Source: Bacteroidota bacterium
Lineage (GTDB): Bacteria > Bacteroidota > Bacteroidia > B-17B0 > Aurantibacillaceae
Direction of reading: 5' to 3'
Length of the DNA: 64,000 nt
Assembly: GCA_030692515.1 (NCBI GenBank)
Contig: JAUXZS010000056.1
Location: 372,001 to 436,000 of the forward strand
In this document: in pieces, positions 45,855 through 60,451 of the stretch
How positions within the stretch are numbered: the first letter of the stretch is position 1
Layout: each line of letters starts with the position of its first letter
Notes under the pieces: model-generated
What the model was told of the DNA's origin: nothing
Database searches by the model: none
What the model saw: only the letters and a program-made list of their open reading frames with translations
Translations under genes and position numbers: made by a program

Positions 45855-45870
45855 TTATCTGGAATAACTT

Positions 45871-45957
45871 TTGCGTAAGGGATAGAAGCGGAAATCCTTT
45901 TTGTTCCCGAAGGGCAAAAAGATTGAAGCGAATAGCCCGACCCAAAGGGATACGCCC
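45871..45957 (+). ncRNA. Flavo-1-like structured RNA
   Basis: Within a 318-bp gene-free gap, a GC-richer island folds into nested elements. An outer GCGTA/TACGC pair (45873-45877 with 45951-45955) closes it. Inside are GGAT/ATCC around a GAAGCGGA-type loop, a CTTTTTG/CAAAAAG hairpin (45897-45921) with an inner CCC-GAA-GGG, and a CCC-AAA-GGG hairpin near the 3' end. The motif pattern (GGGATAGAAGCGGAAATCC, AGCCCGACCC, GGGATACGCCC) is one I recognise as recurring in Bacteroidota intergenic DNA and best matches the Flavo-1 RNA. Strand taken from that pattern. The remaining gap (45958-46172) shows nothing clear. Confidence 0.6.
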
Positions 45958-52025: not shown

Positions 52026-52057
52026 TTGTTGATGGTAAATAAATTTTTATACATTTG
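52026..52057 (+). promoter_or_regulatory. Promoter of the arginine operon
   Basis: TTGTTG at 52026-52031 and TACATTTG (TAnnTTTG) at 52050-52057, with an 18-nt spacing from the second TTG. Transcription would start near 52064, giving a leader of ~245 nt before the first structural gene. Confidence 0.65.
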
Positions 52058-52090
52058 CAGCTCATTAATTTAAAAACAATCACGAAAAAA

Positions 52091-52225
52091 GTGAAAACAA
52101 AAACTCTTACAACAGTTTCAATCGTTAGCCGGTTGCACTCTTCAACCAAGAGTGTGTTTTTGTTTATTAACCAATTAGCCGAAACAATCGTTCCGGTGCG
52201 CCCCATTTATTTTCTACGACGTTGA
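52091..52225 (+). CDS. Candidate arginine leader peptide (44 codons, ends ...YFLRR)
   Basis: The frame GTG 52091 to TGA 52223-52225 lies inside the long mRNA leader of the arginine operon, about 27 nt after the predicted transcription start. The peptide has Arg at residues 14 and 37 and closes with two consecutive Arg codons (CGA CGT) directly before the stop. This is the standard layout of an amino-acid leader peptide for the operon's end product. The Arg codons lie in the 5' arm of a hairpin (see attenuator entry). The start codon is GTG in a context AAAAAAGTGAAAACA. No known peptide family is implied; the assignment rests on position and composition. Confidence 0.6.
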   Translation: MKTKTLTTVSIVSRLHSSTKSVFLFINQLAETIVPVRPIYFLRR

Positions 52226-52282
52226 TTTAAAAATCGCCTTACGTCTTATTTAAAATATTAATTCCCTTTAGGGTATTAATAT
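52218..52282 (+). promoter_or_regulatory. Candidate attenuator hairpins of the arginine operon
   Basis: Hairpin 1 pairs GACGT (52218-52222, containing the last two Arg codons) with ACGTC (52241-52245), and has an inner GATTT/AAATC. Hairpin 2 is a 12-bp stem with one mismatch, ATATTAATTCCC / GGGTATTAATAT (52255-52266 with 52271-52282) and a TTTA loop, followed by CATTTTATTATTT. Stalling on Arg codons would block hairpin 1. The downstream T-tract is short, so hairpin 2 may act as a weak terminator or by hiding the start at 52311. Confidence 0.5.
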
Positions 52283-52310
52283 CATTTTATTATTTCTTAA
52301 TTATTTCACA

Positions 52311-52997
52311 ATGAAAAATTTTATTGTGCAACTGGCTAATAACAGTCATTTGCATTATGCAAACACAATTTGCAACGAGATGGAAGCATCTGCAAAAGCA
52401 AGAGGAACCGGAATCGCCAAAAGGTCGCCCGAATATCTTGAGCAAAAAATGCTGGATGGAAAAGCGATAATCGCATTTTCGCCAGATAAACAATGGGCAG
52501 GCTTTTGTTATATAGAAACATGGAGTCATGGTAATTATGTTGCTAATTCGGGATTAATTGTTGCCCCCGAGTTTAGGAAAAGTGGTTTGGCAAAAGCAAT
52601 TAAAGAAAAAATATTTGAGCTTTCAAAAACTAAGTACCCCGACGCAAAAATATTTGGCTTAACCACTGGCTTAGCGGTCATGAAAATTAATTCAGACCTC
52701 GGCTACGAACCTGTTACTTATTCTGAATTAACGCAAGACGAAGATTTCTGGAAAGGTTGTCGCAGTTGCGTAAACTTCGAAATATTAAAAAGCAAAGACC
52801 GAAAAAATTGTTTGTGTACAGCTATGCTTTATAATCCTGATGAAAAAAAGGATTCTGATAAAGAAAATAAATTTTTGAATTTCAAAAAATACGCAAAGCT
52901 TTTTGAAAGAATAACTAAAATAAAGAAAACCATATTTTTAAAACAACCTAAAGTAAAAAATAAAGAAAATGAAAAAATCAGTAGTATTAGCATTTAG
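52311..52997 (+). CDS. GNAT acyltransferase, likely N-acylglutamate synthase of the arginine operon
   Basis: The 228-residue protein is the GNAT found first in Bacteroidota arginine clusters. ARGTGIAKRSPEYLEQKM lies near the start, FCYIESW-like strand FCYIETWSHG and VANSGLIVAPEFRKSGLAKA (acetyl-CoA loop R-K-S-G-L-A) form the core, and IFGLTTGLAVMKINSDLGYEPV follows. A Cys-containing end (FWKGCRSCVNF, CLCTAMLY) may bind metal. It should add an acyl group (acetyl or succinyl) to glutamate, starting arginine synthesis in place of classical ArgA/ArgJ. Its 3' end overlaps argG by 29 nt. Confidence 0.85.
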   Translation: MKNFIVQLANNSHLHYANTICNEMEASAKARGTGIAKRSPEYLEQKMLDGKAIIAFSPDKQWAGFCYIETWSHGNYVANSGLIVAPEFRKSGLAKAIKEKIFELSKTKYPDAKIFGLTTGLAVMKINSDLGYEPVTYSELTQDEDFWKGCRSCVNFEILKSKDRKNCLCTAMLYNPDEKKDSDKENKFLNFKKYAKLFERITKIKKTIFLKQPKVKNKENEKISSISI

Positions 52998-54162
52998 CGG
53001 AGGATTAGACACTAGCTATTGCGCCATTTATTTATCCAAGATTTTAAATCTGGATGTTCATGCGGTTATAGTAAACACAGGTGGATTTGATAAACAAGAA
53101 ATAAATGAAATTGAAAAGAAAGCAATAGCCTTAGGTGTAAAATCTTTTGTTTGCTTAAATGAAACAGAAAATTTTTATAACAGCGTTGTTAAGTATTTAG
53201 TTTACGGAAATGTTTTAAAAAATAACACCTATCCACTTTCTGTAAGCGCCGAAAGAATTTCGCAAGCAAGTGCTATAGCAAAATATACAAAAAAAATAAA
53301 TGCAGATTTTGTTGCTCATGGCAGTACCGGTGCAGGTAACGACCAAGTTAGGTTTGACGCAGTGTTTAATATCTTAATTCCACACGTTCAAATTATTACG
53401 CCCATAAGAGATAATAAGTTGTCGAGAGAAGAAGAAATTAATTTTTTGAATGAAAATGGAATTTATATTAATGCTGAAAAAGCAAAGTATAGTATCAATA
53501 AAGGAATTTGGGGCACATCTGTTGGAGGAAAAGAAACTTTAACCTCTCATTCAGCTTTACCTTCTCAAGCTTATCCAACACAATTATCAGAAACGCTTGT
53601 AAAAGATGTTGAATTGTATTTTGAAAAAGGCGAGTTAAAGGGCATAGATGGTAAATTATTTGCGCACCCAACCAATGCAATTCAAGCTTTGGAAAAATTA
53701 GCGGCGCCTTTTGCCATTGGCAGAGATATTCATGTTGGCGATACTATTATTGGTATTAAAGGAAGAGTTGGATTTGAAGCAGCTGCCGCGCTTATAATTA
53801 TTAAAGCACATCACGCTTTGGAAAAACACACTTTAACAAAATTGCAATTAATTATTAAAGATCAACAGGCTATGTGGTATGGTAATTGGCTGCATGAAGG
53901 ATTATTTTTGGATCCTATCATGAGAGACTTAGAATGCTTTTTTGAATCAACACAAAAAAATGTAACCGGAAAAGTTTTTGTAAAACTCTCTGCTTATAAT
54001 TTTTCAGTTGAAGGAATTGAATCATCACACGATTTAATGAGTAATAAATTTGGGAGCTATGGAGAAATGAATAATACCTGGACCGGACAAGATGTAAAAG
54101 GCTTTACAAAAATAATGAGCAATCAAATGAGTATTTACCATCAAATAAATTCTGTACAATGA
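52969..54162 (+). CDS. argG: Argininosuccinate synthase
   Basis: 397 residues, normal length. The ATP-pyrophosphatase P-loop A-F-S-G-G-L-D-T-S-Y is at residues 8-17, followed by VAHGSTGAGNDQVRFD for the citrulline/aspartate site and NKGIWGTSVGGKETL. It joins citrulline and aspartate with ATP to form argininosuccinate. It overlaps the acyltransferase gene by 29 nt and shares ATGA with argC (4-nt overlap), so it is cotranslated. Confidence 0.96.
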   Translation: MKKSVVLAFSGGLDTSYCAIYLSKILNLDVHAVIVNTGGFDKQEINEIEKKAIALGVKSFVCLNETENFYNSVVKYLVYGNVLKNNTYPLSVSAERISQASAIAKYTKKINADFVAHGSTGAGNDQVRFDAVFNILIPHVQIITPIRDNKLSREEEINFLNENGIYINAEKAKYSINKGIWGTSVGGKETLTSHSALPSQAYPTQLSETLVKDVELYFEKGELKGIDGKLFAHPTNAIQALEKLAAPFAIGRDIHVGDTIIGIKGRVGFEAAAALIIIKAHHALEKHTLTKLQLIIKDQQAMWYGNWLHEGLFLDPIMRDLECFFESTQKNVTGKVFVKLSAYNFSVEGIESSHDLMSNKFGSYGEMNNTWTGQDVKGFTKIMSNQMSIYHQINSVQ

Positions 54163-55142
54163 AAAAATTAAATGTTTCAATAATTGGTGCAGCTGGCTAT
54201 ACTGGTGGAGAATTACTAAGGTTATTAATTCATCACGATAATATTGAGAGTATTACTGCCGTAAGTCAATCTCAAAAAGGAAAACAAGTAAGCGACGTTT
54301 TTAGTGATTTAATTGGAGAGGTTGAATTAGAATTTTCTTCAAAGGCAAATGAAAAATCGGACATTATTTTTTTATGTCTCCAACACGGTGATTCTGAAAA
54401 TTATTTAAAGGAGAACGCTCACTTGCTCAATTGCAAAATAATTGACTTAAGCAAAGATTTTAGATTAACAGATAATAATTCTTTTGATGATAAAAATTTT
54501 GTTTATGGGTTACCAGAGTTAAACAAAGAAAAAATTAAGACTGCTAATTACATTGCCAATCCAGGTTGTTTTGCCACTGCAATTCAGTTAGCATTATTGC
54601 CTTTTGCAAAGAATAATTTATTGAAAGGCACAATACAAGTAACTGCGGTAACAGGTTCAACTGGCGCAGGAATAAAGCCAACTGAAACTACACATTTTTC
54701 TTGGAGACAAAATAACATTTCCGTGTATCAGCCTTTTGAGCATCCTCACAATGCAGAAATAAAACAAAGCCTTAATCAATTGCAAGAAAATTTTGACGGC
54801 GAATTTTTATTTATACCACAAAGAGGAAATTTTGCAAGAGGTATTTTGGCTACAACTATTTTAGAATCGGATTTGTTGGAATCTGAAATAAAAAAAATGT
54901 TTGAAGAGTTGTATCAGAACGAAGCATTTACTTTTTTAATTGATAAAACAATCGATTTAAAAATGGTAGTTAATACTAACAAATGTTTTATAAACATTAA
55001 AAAGCACAATAAGCACGTGTTAATTACAACTGTTATTGACAACCTGCTGAAAGGCGCAGCCGGACAAGCAGTTCAGAATATGAACATCATGTTTGGACTG
55101 AACGAACAAGAAGGATTAAAATTAAAATGTATAACCTATTAA
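54159..55142 (+). CDS. argC: N-acyl-gamma-glutamyl-phosphate reductase
   Basis: 327 residues. The nucleotide-binding start VSIIGAAGYTGGELLRLL and catalytic Cys137 in ANPGCFATAI identify ArgC; the TGSTGAGIKPTETTHFSWR and HPHNAEI blocks complete the active site. It reduces the acyl-glutamyl phosphate to the semialdehyde using NADPH. The start overlaps the argG stop (ATGA). Confidence 0.95.
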   Translation: MKKLNVSIIGAAGYTGGELLRLLIHHDNIESITAVSQSQKGKQVSDVFSDLIGEVELEFSSKANEKSDIIFLCLQHGDSENYLKENAHLLNCKIIDLSKDFRLTDNNSFDDKNFVYGLPELNKEKIKTANYIANPGCFATAIQLALLPFAKNNLLKGTIQVTAVTGSTGAGIKPTETTHFSWRQNNISVYQPFEHPHNAEIKQSLNQLQENFDGEFLFIPQRGNFARGILATTILESDLLESEIKKMFEELYQNEAFTFLIDKTIDLKMVVNTNKCFINIKKHNKHVLITTVIDNLLKGAAGQAVQNMNIMFGLNEQEGLKLKCITY

Positions 55143-55152
55143 ACTTATTAAA

Positions 55153-56298
55153 ATGAATTTATTTGATGTATACCCACTGTTTGATATTACACCTGTTAAA
55201 GCAGAAGGCACTTTTATTTGGGACGATAAAGGAACTAAGTATTTAGATTTTTATGGCGGACATGCTGTAATTTCTATAGGGCATTCGCACCCGCATTATG
55301 TGAAAAAATTAGATGAGCAAATAAGTCAAATTGCATTTTATTCTAACGCAGTAAAAATGCCGTTACAAAATTTGCTTGCAGAACAATTAGGAAAACTAAG
55401 TGGTTACACTGACTACAATTTGTTTTTATGTAATTCGGGCACCGAGGCAAATGAGAATGCCTTAAAACTGGCATCGTTTCATAATGGAAGAAAAAAAGTT
55501 ATTGCCTTTAAAGATTCATTCCATGGTAGAACTTCTTTATCGCTTGGCGCAACAGATGACGCTAAACTTTCTGCGAATATTAATAAAGATCATCACGTGG
55601 TTTTTTTACCCTTTAATGATGTAGATGCTTTTAAAAATGCAATTGATGAAACTACTTGTGCTGTAATAATAGAAGGAATTCAAGGAGTGGGTGGTATAAA
55701 TGTGCCATCTCTAGATTTTCTTAGAATGTTAGAAACAGAATGTAATAAATTGGGCGTAGTTTTAATTTTAGATGAAATACAATCTGGTTACGGCAGAAGC
55801 GGAAAATTTTTCGCGCATCAGCATTCAGCTATTCAACCACACATTATTACAACTGCCAAAGGCATGGGCAATGGTTTTCCGGTTGCAGGCGTTTTAATTC
55901 ATCCAGATATAAAAGCAAAGCACGGTATGCTAGGCACAACCTTTGGTGGAAATTATTTGGCATGCGCAGCATCACTTTCTGTTTTAGAAGTTATTGAAAA
56001 TGAAAATTTAATTTCGAATGCAAAGGAAACAGGAAATTTTATAATGACTGAACTAAAAAAAATGGAAGGTGTAAAAAGTGTACGTGGCCTTGGATTAATG
56101 ATTGGTATTGAAACGGAGGGCGATGCGAATCTTATCCGAAAAAAATTATTACAAGATGAAAAAATCTTTACTGGTTTTTCTTCCGGAAAAAACACCATTC
56201 GTTTATTACCCCCTTTAAATATTACAATAGAGGAGGCGCAGATGTTTTTAAATTCAATCAATACAATTTTACAACAACAATTAATACCCAATACATAA
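55153..56298 (+). CDS. argD: N-acylornithine aminotransferase (class III PLP)
   Basis: 381 residues. PLP-enzyme features: NSGTEANENALKLA (phosphate-binding), FHGRTSLSLGAT, LILDEIQSGYGRSGKF with the PLP-binding Asp, and TTAKGMGNGFPVAGV with Lys236 as the Schiff-base lysine. It transfers an amino group from glutamate to the acyl-glutamate semialdehyde. Its place between argC and argF' fixes the role. It starts 10 nt after argC. Confidence 0.93.
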   Translation: MNLFDVYPLFDITPVKAEGTFIWDDKGTKYLDFYGGHAVISIGHSHPHYVKKLDEQISQIAFYSNAVKMPLQNLLAEQLGKLSGYTDYNLFLCNSGTEANENALKLASFHNGRKKVIAFKDSFHGRTSLSLGATDDAKLSANINKDHHVVFLPFNDVDAFKNAIDETTCAVIIEGIQGVGGINVPSLDFLRMLETECNKLGVVLILDEIQSGYGRSGKFFAHQHSAIQPHIITTAKGMGNGFPVAGVLIHPDIKAKHGMLGTTFGGNYLACAASLSVLEVIENENLISNAKETGNFIMTELKKMEGVKSVRGLGLMIGIETEGDANLIRKKLLQDEKIFTGFSSGKNTIRLLPPLNITIEEAQMFLNSINTILQQQLIPNT

Positions 56299-56299
56299 A

Positions 56300-57307
56300 A
56301 TGAAATACTTTACAACAATAAATGATATAAAAAGCGCTGAGTTTTTAATTTCAGAAGCTTTAAAGTTAAAGAAGAATCCCTTTGGGTTTTCTCAACTTGG
56401 TAAAAACAAAACGCTTGGTATCATTTTTATGAACCCAAGTTTAAGAACGCGGTTAAGCACACAAAAGGCTGCACAAAACTTAGGCATGAATACCGTTGTG
56501 ATGAATTTTAATCAGGAAGGCTGGGCGTTAGAATATGAGGATGGCGCAATTATGAATGGCAATACTGTAGAACATATAAAAGATGCCGCAGCTGTTATGG
56601 GAACTTATTGCGATATAATTGCCATTAGATGTTTCCCTTCTTTAAAAAACAAGCAAGAAGATTACAGCGAAAAAATTTTATTGCAGTTTATGAAATATTG
56701 CAACAAACCAGTTATTAGTTTAGAATCTGCCACCTTACATCCATTACAAAGTTTAGCAGATGTAATGACGATTGAAGAAAACAAACCAGGTAATAAAAAA
56801 CCAAAAGTTGTTTTAACATGGGCACCGCATATAAAGCCTTTGCCTCAAGCCGTTGCAAATTCGTTTTGTGAATGGATAAAACAAAGCGATGTTGAATTTG
56901 TAATTGCTCATCCAGAGGGATATGAGTTAAGCGAAGATTTTACTCATGGAGTTTCTATTTCTAATAATCAAAACGAAGCTTTAGCGAAAGCAGATTTTGT
57001 GTATGTAAAAAACTGGTCCGCGTTTAATGATTATGGTGCAATGCCGGAGGTAAAGGAAAATTGGTTGCTCAATGAAAATAAAATGAGTTTAACCAATAAC
57101 GCTTTCTTGATGCATTGTTTGCCAGTAAGACGTAATGTAGAAGTAATAGATAGTTTGTTAGATAATAATAAATCATTAATACTAAATCAAGCAGACAATA
57201 GAGTTTTTGCCGCCCAAGCAGTTTTGAAGCAAATGCTTGAATCTAACTATAATGTTGGCGAACAAATTAACAATACAAAACTTGAAATAGAATTATGCAA
57301 CAGTTAA
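56300..57307 (+). CDS. argF': N-acylornithine carbamoyltransferase, predicted succinyl type
   Basis: 335 residues. The carbamoyl-phosphate site P-S-L-R-T-R (46-51) and HCLPVRRNVEV are present, and ATLHPLQSLADVMTIEE replaces the HPxQ motif context of ordinary ArgF. The chain is collinear with the Bacteroides fragilis N-succinylornithine transcarbamylase rather than with ArgF. The residue that separates succinyl- from acetyl-specific enzymes (Pro90 in B. fragilis, Glu92 in Xanthomonas) is Val90 here, inside GNTVEH. Mutants of the Xanthomonas enzyme with Val at that position are reported to prefer N-succinylornithine, so succinyl is predicted. It overlaps argB by 13 nt. Confidence 0.92.
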   Translation: MKYFTTINDIKSAEFLISEALKLKKNPFGFSQLGKNKTLGIIFMNPSLRTRLSTQKAAQNLGMNTVVMNFNQEGWALEYEDGAIMNGNTVEHIKDAAAVMGTYCDIIAIRCFPSLKNKQEDYSEKILLQFMKYCNKPVISLESATLHPLQSLADVMTIEENKPGNKKPKVVLTWAPHIKPLPQAVANSFCEWIKQSDVEFVIAHPEGYELSEDFTHGVSISNNQNEALAKADFVYVKNWSAFNDYGAMPEVKENWLLNENKMSLTNNAFLMHCLPVRRNVEVIDSLLDNNKSLILNQADNRVFAAQAVLKQMLESNYNVGEQINNTKLEIELCNS

Positions 57308-58083
57308 CGATTGTAAAAATTGGAGGAAATGTAATTGATGATGAAAAAGCTTTGGCTGTTTTTTTGGAAGAGTTTAGTGTATTGAAAGGAAAAAAAATTT
57401 TAGTTCATGGAGGTGGCAAATTAGCCAATCAATTACAAGAAAAGTTAGGCATAGCAATAAACCTAATTGACGGAAGAAGAATTACTGATGAAGAAACATT
57501 AAAAATTGTTACCATGGTTTATGCAGGTTTAATTAATAAAAACCTTGTCTCCAAATTGCAAAGTTTAAAATGTAACACAATTGGATTATCGGGCGCAGAC
57601 GCAAATTGTATTCAGGCAAACAAAAGAAATAAAGATGAAATTGATTACGGTTTTGTTGGCGATATTGAAAAAGTAAACGCTTCATTTATTTCGTCTTGTT
57701 TAGAAAATAATTTAACGCCAGTTTTTTCTGCAATTACACATGATGGGCATGGACAATTGCTAAATACTAACGCTGATACTATTGCTTCTGAATTAGCAAT
57801 TGCTCTTAGTAATAATTATAAGGTTCAATTGGTTTATTGTTTCGAAAAAAACGGTGTATTAGAAAATATAGAAAATGAAAACAGTCTTATAAAAACAATT
57901 TCAAATGTTGAGTACTTAAATTTAAAAGAAAAGTTAATTATTAATAAAGGAATGATTCCGAAAATGGATAACGCTTTTAATGCACTTAGCAAGGGTGTAA
58001 AATTTATTCAAATTGGCAATTCTAATAAATTATTAAAATTACTAATCGAAGAAAATTATGAAGGAACAAGATTATATAGTTAG
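57295..58083 (+). CDS. argB: N-acylglutamate kinase
   Basis: 262 residues. Amino-acid-kinase fold: IVKIGGNVIDDE with Lys8, ILVHGGGKLANQLQ for the acylglutamate carboxylate, and LNTNADTIASELAIALS and NKGMIPKMDNA for ATP binding. It phosphorylates N-acylglutamate. It lacks the N-terminal helix that makes ArgB arginine-sensitive in some bacteria, which suits control at the leader instead; that is inference. The start overlaps argF' by 13 nt and its end overlaps argE by 26 nt. Confidence 0.94.
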   Translation: MQQLTIVKIGGNVIDDEKALAVFLEEFSVLKGKKILVHGGGKLANQLQEKLGIAINLIDGRRITDEETLKIVTMVYAGLINKNLVSKLQSLKCNTIGLSGADANCIQANKRNKDEIDYGFVGDIEKVNASFISSCLENNLTPVFSAITHDGHGQLLNTNADTIASELAIALSNNYKVQLVYCFEKNGVLENIENENSLIKTISNVEYLNLKEKLIINKGMIPKMDNAFNALSKGVKFIQIGNSNKLLKLLIEENYEGTRLYS

Positions 58084-59152
58084 TGATAGCGAAAATGTTT
58101 CTGTTTTAAAATCAGAAGTTACAGAGTTGCTTGAAAAATTAATTTCAACGCCATCCTATAGCAGGGAAGAAAATTTAACCGGAGATTTAATCGAGCAATT
58201 TTTGATTAAAAAAGAAATAGATGTAAATAGAAATATAAATAACGTTTGGTGTAAGAATAAATTCTTTGATGAGTTAAAAAAAACAATTTTATTGAATTCG
58301 CATCACGATACAGTTAAACCTAATTCTGGCTACACTAATAACCCGTTCAATCCTTTTACAGAAGAAGGAAAAATATTTGGCTTAGGTAGCAACGATGCCG
58401 GCGGACCTTTAATGGCCCTTTTAGCCACATTCATTTATTTTTATGACAAAGAAAACTTAAAGTACAATTTTATTTTTGCTGCGACGGCAGAGGAAGAAAT
58501 TTCAGGACAAAATGGAATTGCATGTTTAATAAATGATTTGCCTAAAATTGATTTTGCAATTGTTGGTGAACCAACACAAATGCAAATGGCCGCTGCCGAA
58601 AAAGGTTTGCTAGTTTTAGATTGTAAAGTTTTTGGTAAGGCCGGGCATGCTGCTCGTAATGAAGGAGAAAATGCAATTGTAAAATCGATGGAAATTATTA
58701 ATTGGTTTAGCACATTTAAATTTCCAAAAATTTCCGAAAGCTTAGGAGAAATAAAAATGAGTGTTACAGTAATTAAAGCTGGAGGGCAACACAATGTTGT
58801 TCCTGCCCTTTGTGAATTTACTGTTGATGTGAGAACGACTGATGTTTATACCAATGAAGAGGTTGTTACAATAATTAAAAATCATGTTGATTGTGAAATT
58901 ACGCCGCGTTCATATCGATTACAACCTTCTTCTATTTCAAAAAGTCATCCATTTGTTTTGGAAGGCTTAAAACTAAATAGAACAACTTATGGTTCGCCCA
59001 CTTTGAGCGACCAAGCTTTAATGCCATGGCCTTCATTAAAAATGGGACCGGGAGATTCTGCTCGCTCACATAGCGCAAACGAATTTATTTACATCAACGA
59101 AATTGAAGAAGCAATTGATATTTATATTACTATTTTAAAAAAATTAAATTAA
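58058..59152 (+). CDS. argE: N-acylornithine/N-acylcitrulline deacylase (M20 family)
   Basis: 364 residues. M20 metallopeptidase signatures: H82-H-D84-T-V for metal binding, GSNDAGGPLMA with bridging Asp113, and ATAEEEISGQNG with the general-base Glu. The dimerisation insert is present (KVFGKAGHAARNEGENAI). In the pathway with a transcarbamylase acting on acylornithine, the enzyme removes the acyl group from acylcitrulline. It overlaps argB and ends 0 nt before argH. Confidence 0.93.
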   Translation: MKEQDYIVSDSENVSVLKSEVTELLEKLISTPSYSREENLTGDLIEQFLIKKEIDVNRNINNVWCKNKFFDELKKTILLNSHHDTVKPNSGYTNNPFNPFTEEGKIFGLGSNDAGGPLMALLATFIYFYDKENLKYNFIFAATAEEEISGQNGIACLINDLPKIDFAIVGEPTQMQMAAAEKGLLVLDCKVFGKAGHAARNEGENAIVKSMEIINWFSTFKFPKISESLGEIKMSVTVIKAGGQHNVVPALCEFTVDVRTTDVYTNEEVVTIIKNHVDCEITPRSYRLQPSSISKSHPFVLEGLKLNRTTYGSPTLSDQALMPWPSLKMGPGDSARSHSANEFIYINEIEEAIDIYITILKKLN

Positions 59153-60451
59153 ATGAAAACAAAACTTTGGGAAAAAGAAAGTGTCGTTACGCCACATTGG
59201 TTATTAGAATTTACTGCCGGTAACGATAAAATTTTAGATTTAGAATTAGCTGAGTTTGACGTATTAGGCTCAATGGCACATGTTGAAATGCTTGCAAAGG
59301 TTGGTCTAATTACTTTAGATGAACATCCTTTATTAAAAAATGAACTACAAGTGATTTTGTCTAAAATTAAAAATAACGAATTTGTAATTGAAGAGGGAGT
59401 AGAGGATGTGCATTCTCAAGTAGAGATTCTTCTTACAAGAAAACTAGGTGATGTTGGAAAAAAAATTCATACTGCACGTTCACGGAACGATCAGGTGTTA
59501 ACGGATATTAAATTGTATACAGTTAATGAATTGAAAAAAACTGTTTCTTTAATTAACGACTTATTTAAATTATTAATTGGTAAAAGCGAAGAATATAAAA
59601 ATGTTTTGATTCCAGGATACACCCATTTGCAAGCAGCCATGCCATCTTCGTTTGGTTTATGGTTTGGTGCTTTTGCCGAAAGTTTATGTGATGATATGGA
59701 AATGGTTAATGCTGCATATAACATAGCCAATAAAAATCCATTAGGTTCTGGTGCTGGTTACGGAGGCTCGTTACCAATTGATAGAGACGTTACAACAGAA
59801 TTATTAAATTTTGATGGAATGAATTATAATGTGGTGTATGCGCAAATGACAAGAGGTAAAACCGAGAAAGCAACTACCATTGCATTAGCAACTGTTGCAG
59901 CAACGCTTTCGAAATTGGCAATGGATATTTGTTTGTATAACTCTCAAAATTTCGGTTTCGTTTCTTTCCCTGATTCATTAACAACTGGAAGCAGTATTAT
60001 GCCGCATAAAAAAAACCCTGATGTCTTTGAATTGGTTAGAGCCAAATGTAATAGGCTGCAAGCACTTCCAAATGAACTTACCTTATTATTAAATAATTTA
60101 CCTTCGGGTTATCACAGAGATTTTCAATTAACAAAAGAAATTTTGTTTCCAGCGTTTAAAGAAATGCACGCTTGCATAAAAGCTACCATAAAAATGTTGG
60201 AGCAAATTCAAATAAATAAAAACGCAATTAATGACGAAAAATATAAATTTATTTTTAGTGTTGAAGCTGTTAATCAATTAGTGCTTGGTGGAATGTCGTT
60301 TAGAGATGCCTACCAAAAAGTGGGAGCTGAAATTACAAACAATGAATTTGAATTTAATGAAACGCTTAAACACACGCATCAAGGAAGCATTCATAATTTG
60401 TGTAATGATGAGATTAAAAAACGTTTTGAGAAGTTGAGGGAGAAGAATTAG
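59153..60451 (+). CDS. argH: Argininosuccinate lyase
   Basis: 432 residues. Fumarase-superfamily motifs: EDVHSQVE, TARSRNDQVLTD, PGYTHLQAAMPSSFG and the signature GSSIMPHKKNPD with the catalytic Ser loop. It splits argininosuccinate to arginine and fumarate, the last step. It begins on the base after the argE stop and is the last gene of the operon; a large inverted repeat follows. Confidence 0.95.
   Translation: MKTKLWEKESVVTPHWLLEFTAGNDKILDLELAEFDVLGSMAHVEMLAKVGLITLDEHPLLKNELQVILSKIKNNEFVIEEGVEDVHSQVEILLTRKLGDVGKKIHTARSRNDQVLTDIKLYTVNELKKTVSLINDLFKLLIGKSEEYKNVLIPGYTHLQAAMPSSFGLWFGAFAESLCDDMEMVNAAYNIANKNPLGSGAGYGGSLPIDRDVTTELLNFDGMNYNVVYAQMTRGKTEKATTIALATVAATLSKLAMDICLYNSQNFGFVSFPDSLTTGSSIMPHKKNPDVFELVRAKCNRLQALPNELTLLLNNLPSGYHRDFQLTKEILFPAFKEMHACIKATIKMLEQIQINKNAINDEKYKFIFSVEAVNQLVLGGMSFRDAYQKVGAEITNNEFEFNETLKHTHQGSIHNLCNDEIKKRFEKLREKN

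Follow-up and report, generated by a model that had tools for sequence, protein, structure and literature searches.

A leader peptide ending in Arg codons, with a hairpin across its stop codon, as a candidate arginine sensor before an arginine operon in Bacteroidia

The leader and its operon

The window analysed here is a stretch of 64,000 nucleotides from a Bacteroidota bacterium of the class Bacteroidia, family Aurantibacillaceae (GenBank assembly GCA_030692515.1, contig JAUXZS010000056.1, positions 372,001 to 436,000 of the forward strand), in which an eight-gene arginine operon (52311-60451, identified by Pfam matches of the gene products) lies 3' of a short leader open reading frame (ORF) that ends in two Arg codons. 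An earlier note on this DNA had described a promoter, a 44-codon frame, Arg codons and two hairpins before the operon, and all of these are present in the window sequence. The central claim of that note, a translated leader ending in Arg before an arginine operon, is borne out at 14 of the 16 readable loci of the family (L015 and L016 do not have it, and L017 is cut off) and in many other families of the class. The features of the leader, in window coordinates, are as follows.

52026 to 52057, + strand: promoter, with TTG at 52026-52028 and 52029-52031 and TACATTTG at 52050-52057 (TAnnTTTG), seen in the sequence
52091 to 52225, + strand: leader ORF of 44 codons with GTG start at 52091 and stop codon TGA at 52223-52225, its product ending PVRPIYFLRR, from sequence, comparison and purifying selection
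52134 to 52156, + strand: terminator-like hairpin within the leader ORF, followed by TTTTTGTTT, from the predicted fold and from relatives
52199 to 52201, + strand: Arg codon CGC of the VRP motif, Arg in 9/9 and 3/3 sequences of two groups
52217 to 52222, + strand: tandem terminal Arg codons CGA (52217-52219) and CGT (52220-52222), from sequence and comparison
52218 to 52245, + strand: hairpin H1, spanning the last Arg codons and the stop codon, from folding, pairing profiles and comparison
52255 to 52282, + strand: hairpin H2, followed by a U-rich stretch at 52283-52298, from folding and pairing profiles

The element TACATTTG matches TAnnTTTG, which we take to be the Bacteroidota -7 consensus, and relatives carry TATTTGC or CCTTTGC-like elements at the corresponding position. 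The genes of the operon were assigned from Pfam matches, as follows; most of the gene names are those suggested by the operon.

52311 to 52997, + strand: GNAT acetyltransferase, first gene of the operon (PF00583)
52969 to 54162, + strand: argG, argininosuccinate synthase
54159 to 55142, + strand: argC, semialdehyde dehydrogenase (name inferred from the operon)
55153 to 56298, + strand: argD, class-III aminotransferase (name inferred)
56300 to 57307, + strand: acetylornithine/ornithine carbamoyltransferase
57295 to 58083, + strand: argB, amino acid kinase (name inferred)
58058 to 59152, + strand: argE-like deacetylase of the M20 peptidase family (name inferred)
59153 to 60451, + strand: argH, lyase (Lyase_1; name inferred)

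Judged by its position, the GNAT gene product probably carries out the first acylation step of arginine synthesis.

Conservation of the frame and choice of Arg codons

The GNAT gene was found in 17 of the 87 genomes of the family. Two of the upstream rows were dropped as chance ORFs (L016, and L017, which lies on a cut contig), and two others are the same places as L002 and L004 (L018 and L019, respectively). Alignment of the upstream regions, the check on relatives that the earlier note had proposed, shows that the frame and its Arg residues are conserved, often down to the same Arg codons. In nine relatives, five from genus g7 and four from the genus of the window, the ORF ends in variants of LPVRPxFxIRR before the stop codon, ATG stands in place of the GTG of the window, and length changes preserve the frame. 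On the start codon the note needs correction, as it is GTG in the window and not ATG, which L004-L014 do have at that place. Counted over codons with single-base differences, the ratio of nonsynonymous to synonymous changes, observed over expected, is 0.26 in the nine relatives, 0.34 in L001-L003, and 0.18, 0.35 and 0.52 in the leaders of Pedobacter, Mucilaginibacter and Daejeonella, respectively. Codon differences are thus mostly synonymous, which indicates purifying selection on the leader frame.

In the genome of the window, the search for Arg tRNAs gave the anticodons UCU, CCU and CCG, with a single ACG, a list that may be incomplete given that 26 of 30 loci were scanned (the other four lie within them) and 150 of 392 candidates scored. 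The ACG tRNA should, we assume, read CGA, CGC and CGT through inosine. At 13 loci of the family, 37 of the 39 terminal Arg codons are CGA, CGT or CGC; AGA accounts for only two of the 39, versus 179 of the 350 Arg codons in the long ORFs of the window. The share of CGA among Arg codons is 3-9% in six groups of relatives and 3% in Mucilaginibacter, yet both tandem Arg codons are CGA in 18/18 Mucilaginibacter leaders. This choice of codons fits a sensor that would work through scarce or slow tRNAs.

Distribution across the class and alternation with ArgR

The class sample comprised 396 genomes, 140 of them with the GNAT gene, and 100 places were fetched for an ORF scan. An upstream ORF with at least three Arg in its last 12 codons was present at 62 of the 100 fetched loci (20 shuffles gave a mean of 5.6 and never more than 10), and one with at least four Arg at 36, as compared with 1.1. 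When the other residues were counted over the same 12 codons (four shuffles each, three or more residues), clear enrichment was seen for Pro only (20 versus 3.5), which may reflect C-rich stems or dual control. Upstream regions of other genes gave 5 hits in 113, and four of these belong to the GNAT gene itself, taken with a different start, so that 1 in 109 remains. The two locus sets, one of which carries organism names, overlap partly, and the 113 control genes here, as well as the 119 used further below, include a few GNAT genes under another start. An ORF with at least three Arg occurs in 24 of the 37 families of the larger set, although the case in f56 is probably due to chance.

The leaders of different clades end in different peptides: mostly SRRRLFIPRV or near variants in Mucilaginibacter, RQNYTPRI or near variants in Pedobacter, FRRPFMPRT in Daejeonella, SRRPRI in Chitinophaga, and VRRVLNIRR or VRRILNIRR in Adhaeribacter, in each case followed by the stop codon. 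Between clades, Arg near the end appears to be the constant feature, and little else stays. No leader was found at six Flavobacterium loci (L049, L065, L072, L073, L075 and L076) among the 80 named loci. Of the first 97 loci, nine have none, among them L079, which has almost no upstream DNA. Two loci of f53 (L181 and L185) have two successive Arg-ending ORFs before the operon, and L219 has a far-upstream ORF ending in LRRRRPMRRR.

No match to the repressor ArgR was found in any of the 87 genomes of the family, in a search whose control was positive in 8/14, and 18 of the 396 genomes of the class have one. With G178, G380 and second copies of the gene left out, 138 genomes with the GNAT gene were tallied. 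A leader with at least three Arg is present in 78 of the 124 that lack an ArgR match but in only 2 of the 14 that have one (Fisher p 0.0009, with kinship ignored); for at least two Arg the counts are 95/124 and 4/14. In 13 of the 14 ArgR-bearing genomes, 41-143 bases separate the end of the ArgR match from the start of a GNAT gene that follows on the same strand, so that repressor and leader occupy the same place. Both exceptions, in which a leader and ArgR coincide, are questionable: the ArgR match of G192 is weak (E 8e-5) and has an internal stop, and the ORF of G436, which is among the 13, lies inside the argR region and resembles a chance ORF. These patterns suggest that leader and ArgR replace each other across the class.

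Hairpins at the stop codon and inside the frame

As a whole, the leader has a better predicted fold than its shuffles (z -3.16, 1/200 as good). H1 consists of two helices, GACGU (52218-52222) with ACGUC (52241-52245) and UGAUU (52223-52227) with AAUCG (52232-52236), and its 5' arm is made up of the last bases of the CGA codon together with CGT and the stop. The pairing of ACGTC at 52241-52245, taken in the earlier note for a competitor of H1, is the outer helix of H1 itself.

Pairing profiles and hairpin counts covered the clades named here and 58 loci of other families. Both hairpins are present in 13/13 family members by a loose rule, but 65% of shuffles also pass the loose criterion for H1, and by a stricter position rule H2 is found in 12/13, L003 being the one without it. 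As shuffles reach 59-71% for the stop-codon hairpin, the plain count was set aside in favour of a position profile. Mean pairing profiles anchored on the stop codon place H1 above shuffles in the family of the window, in Pedobacter and in Mucilaginibacter, with the 5' arm at about -5 to +9 relative to the stop (to +4 in Pedobacter) and the 3' arm at +10 to +24. H2 lies at about +28 to +52 in the family (12/13) and at +30 to +51 in Mucilaginibacter (19/19), and is a shorter hairpin in Pedobacter, with a median of +24 to +38 (17/17). Thus, H1 keeps an equal distance from the stop in three clades of unrelated sequence; H2 does so in two and is nearer in Pedobacter. By eye, a GCCC-GUAA-GGGU hairpin with the stop in its loop is seen in f53, and CUGACAGG...CCUGUCAG in f36. 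A conserved loop, AGGTGAGTCC, is shared by L170, L171, L175, L182 and L185, where the hairpin stem differs between loci.

The compensatory stem changes sought in the earlier note do occur, by count in the hairpin inside the ORF and by eye in H1. In the nine relatives, four of the five pairs of the hairpin inside the ORF are changed on both sides, and the covariation score over two helices inside the ORF is 0.402 versus 0.132 in shuffles (0/500 as high). In the window, one terminator-like hairpin with TTTTTGTTT was found inside the ORF (52134-52166) versus 0.2 expected; the U-run after it is predicted to pair with the region of the leader start (52095-52104), and L002-L004 retain this arrangement of hairpin and U-run. 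Searches with the Rfam 15 covariance models gave no match to the leaders at the gathering threshold, and none below E 0.5 in 20 relatives; a match to RF02546 at E 0.82 was taken as chance.

Folding tests with the his and trp leaders as controls

The genome of the window also carries a his leader before hisG (L198, contig C25, reverse complement, about 1196-1340; peptide MHIHHHHNLHQ...) and a trp leader before trpE (L199, contig C51, reverse complement, about 1320-1440; peptide MKNNNVNKMWWWFANKIVNS, with WWW), each with an antiterminator and a terminator followed by a T run. These served as positive controls in a test in which the nascent RNA between a stalled ribosome and the 3' arm of the terminator was folded. 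With the ribosome on the control codons this RNA reached -15.0 (his) and -12.0 (trp) kcal/mol, as compared with -0.3 and -2.6 with the ribosome at the stop codon. For the arginine leaders with a ribosome stalled on the final Arg codons, no stable antiterminator was predicted, the values being 0.0 to -1.9 kcal/mol in 13/13 family sequences. The his and trp leaders pass the test and the arginine leader does not, and it therefore looks like a distinct variant.

Other placements of the ribosome gave other results. A stall on the first Arg of VRP left nascent RNA that folded at -4.4 to -10.8 kcal/mol; in 6/13 sequences this fold included some pairs into the 5' arm of H2 (11 such pairs in L011). With the whole leader free of ribosomes the pairs of the H2 region were weaker in 10/14 sequences, falling from 0.80 to 0.25 in L014. 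In these models, a competitor acting without a ribosome on the leader, or with a stall on the first Arg, is possible. When H1 was blocked, the pairs of the H2 region dropped in probability by at most 0.03 in any of the 14 sequences.

A competing 2:3 pairing was considered for a ribosome stalled on the final Arg codons and rejected, as it reaches -0.5 kcal/mol in the family versus -1.4 in shuffles. The corresponding values are -5.9 versus -3.5 in Pedobacter, where H2 was often picked wrongly downstream (-2.9 versus -2.2 by the position rule), and -1.6 versus -1.8 in Mucilaginibacter (position rule). Complementarity of GCGUA and UACGC was also discarded: at 12 loci chosen for their TAYG-like loop, of which most have the UACG/UAUG hairpin, 402 of 500 locus permutations were at least as good.

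For terminators and base composition, removal of leaders with identical sequence after the stop codon took the set from 156 to 145. Terminator-like sites follow the leader stop at 18 of these 145 loci, versus 13, 15 and 12 in shuffles, and no excess of intrinsic terminators was found outside the clade of the window. In the family, H2 is terminator-like with a U-rich tail in 8/13, a ninth hit being H1 of L004. The T fraction over the 12 bases after H2 is 0.62 in the family (12/13 sequences), 0.18 in Pedobacter and 0.24 in Mucilaginibacter.

Two further observations concern the window and its genome. A Flavo-1 RNA (Rfam RF01705, 64.7 bits) lies at 45868-45946 of the window. In the genome of the window (G000, rated 100% complete), PF00920 (IlvD/Edd) has no match, and branched-chain synthesis may be missing.

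Discussion

It is very likely, from comparison across the class, that this leader senses arginine through its Arg codons. We consider it probable that it does so as a cis-acting element, with the charging of arginine tRNA sensed by stalling of the ribosome on the terminal Arg codons, and that it would thereby set expression of the operon. When arginine is ample, the ribosome would reach the stop codon and leave, H1 would fold, and expression of the operon would stay low; under arginine shortage, the ribosome would stall on the terminal Arg codons and cover the 5' arm of H1, and the operon would be on. We lean, though only slightly, towards H1 as the switch. As to its readout, in the clade of the window H2 and its U-rich tail could terminate transcription, and elsewhere Rho, mRNA decay or control of translation could act; as the downstream output, intrinsic termination, Rho, and decay or translation are each doubtful when taken singly.

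Several of our results weigh against this interpretation. In the folding models, nothing downstream that could read H1 as a putative switch responds when H1 is blocked. The pairing profile anchored on the stop codon is faint across the 58 loci of other families. A scan of the opposite strand at the 100 fetched loci, which covered a wider range, gave 13 hits with at least three Arg. The chosen codons are not all rare: CGA makes up 11% of the Arg codons of the window (40/350), and CGT, which is common in Pedobacter genes, accounts for 10 of the 30 terminal Arg codons in Pedobacter. Conservation of residues other than Arg inside clades may also reflect a role of the peptide sequence itself. Finally, 46 of the 124 genomes that lack ArgR also lack a leader at the threshold of at least three Arg (29 at two), including 7 of the 15 of f53, and the counts of leader and ArgR carry no correction for phylogeny.

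The layout claimed in the earlier note was that of transcription attenuation, and its first part, a leader that ends in Arg codons, stands. In textbook attenuation of the trp and his type, a stall on the Arg codons would let an antiterminator replace an intrinsic terminator made of H2 and its U-tail. The genes and the codons fit this, the genome of the window uses the mechanism for his and trp, the tail of H2 is U-rich in the clade of the window, and both a stall on the first Arg of VRP and a wholly free leader produce folds that involve or weaken H2. However, the antiterminator and terminator logic of that layout is not supported: a stall on the last Arg codons yields no stable antiterminator in any of the 13 family sequences, in contrast to his and trp, blocking H1 does not weaken H2, a terminator U-tract is weak in the clade of the window and missing after H2 in Pedobacter and Mucilaginibacter, and terminator-like sites number much as in shuffles. 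We thus regard textbook attenuation as unlikely. Control by Rho in the manner of tnaC, in which a ribosome at the last codons would shield the RNA after the stop codon and, with ample arginine, would depart and let Rho terminate, seems to us rather unlikely as well. It would account for sensing codons directly at the stop and agrees with the lack of an intrinsic-terminator excess in most clades, and from the stop codon to the gene C exceeds G in 94% of the 145 loci (mean C-G +0.077) versus 61% (+0.024) in 119 other upstream regions. But this bias is modest and present in the ORF itself (+0.057), and the two hairpins occupy the stretch where a Rho site should be open.

Two other explanations give the peptide or the RNA a role of its own. 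Nascent chains can arrest the ribosome, as SpeFL does with ornithine, and an arrest peptide that binds arginine would be in line with the conservation, within clades, of residues other than Arg (PVRPxFxIRR, SRRRLFIPRV, RQNYTPRI) and with the enrichment of Pro near the end. However, little except Arg persists between clades, and at several positions the Arg codon itself is fixed while nearby Pro codons vary, although some other residues are codon-fixed too. Arrest induced by arginine would, moreover, have the opposite sign unless arrest represses, and we consider such a peptide very unlikely. Alternatively, the leader could be a small protein with a function of its own, or a structured RNA that serves as an aptamer for arginine, lying before the operon by chance. 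This could explain the covarying structure inside the ORF of the nine relatives, but no Rfam family fits, and both peptide and RNA sequence diverge between families while terminal Arg persists; we consider it less likely still.

Returning to a ribosome that stalls on the terminal Arg codons and acts on H1, we tentatively propose that it represents a second type of amino-acid attenuator that is found widely in Bacteroidia. In it, the sensing codons and the stop codon would form the 5' arm of the decisive hairpin, and the stalled ribosome would switch it directly without an antiterminator and, mostly, without an intrinsic terminator, as a substitute for ArgR in much of the class.

Comparison with known systems

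Like the arginine leader, the trp and his leaders of the window's genome are short ORFs with codons for the end product before biosynthetic genes. They differ in that their control codons lie in the middle of the peptide, with a strong terminator and T run and an evident antiterminator, whereas in the arginine leader the codons are terminal, the stop codon lies within a hairpin, and a stall on the last codons gives no antiterminator. In tnaC, free tryptophan is sensed with the nascent chain, and a catabolic operon is turned on in a Rho-linked manner. As is proposed for the arginine leader, the ribosome is held in tnaC where the leader ends, beside the stop codon. ArgR goes with the same operon start and is encoded in the same place as the leader in 13 of the 14 ArgR-bearing genomes, but it is a protein repressor.

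A leader peptide that senses arginine through Arg codons is also found in rbfL of Staphylococcus aureus, where arginine shortage is sensed by rare Arg codons with a scarce tRNA (PMC13009471). In that case, the leader represses translation of a biofilm regulator by blocking the ribosome site, and the available part of the paper mentions no arg operon or stop-codon hairpin (PMC13009471). For Bacteroidota, long 5' untranslated regions with short ORFs that resemble attenuation leaders are described in Bacteroides thetaiotaomicron, in a study whose main text does not mention arginine (PMC7366714), and a survey of leader genes reports a peak of leader-gene distance in Bacteroidetes, arginine again going unmentioned in its available part (PMC4833913). 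Among the matches listed in our literature search, no title or opening of an abstract names an arginine leader peptide in Bacteroidota, although a comparative-genomic study of the attenuation of amino acid operons (Lopatovskaya et al. 2010) may contain an earlier prediction.

The absence of an ArgR match from 124 of the 138 tallied genomes raises the question of how arginine synthesis is controlled there, and the leader offers a concrete and testable answer for Bacteroidia that lack ArgR. If so, a leader sensor and a repressor would alternate at one spot before the same operon. Bacteroidota initiate translation without the Shine-Dalgarno mechanism; a phylum of this kind would still use the stalling of ribosomes to sense an amino acid, in a form unlike that of the his and trp leaders in the same genome.
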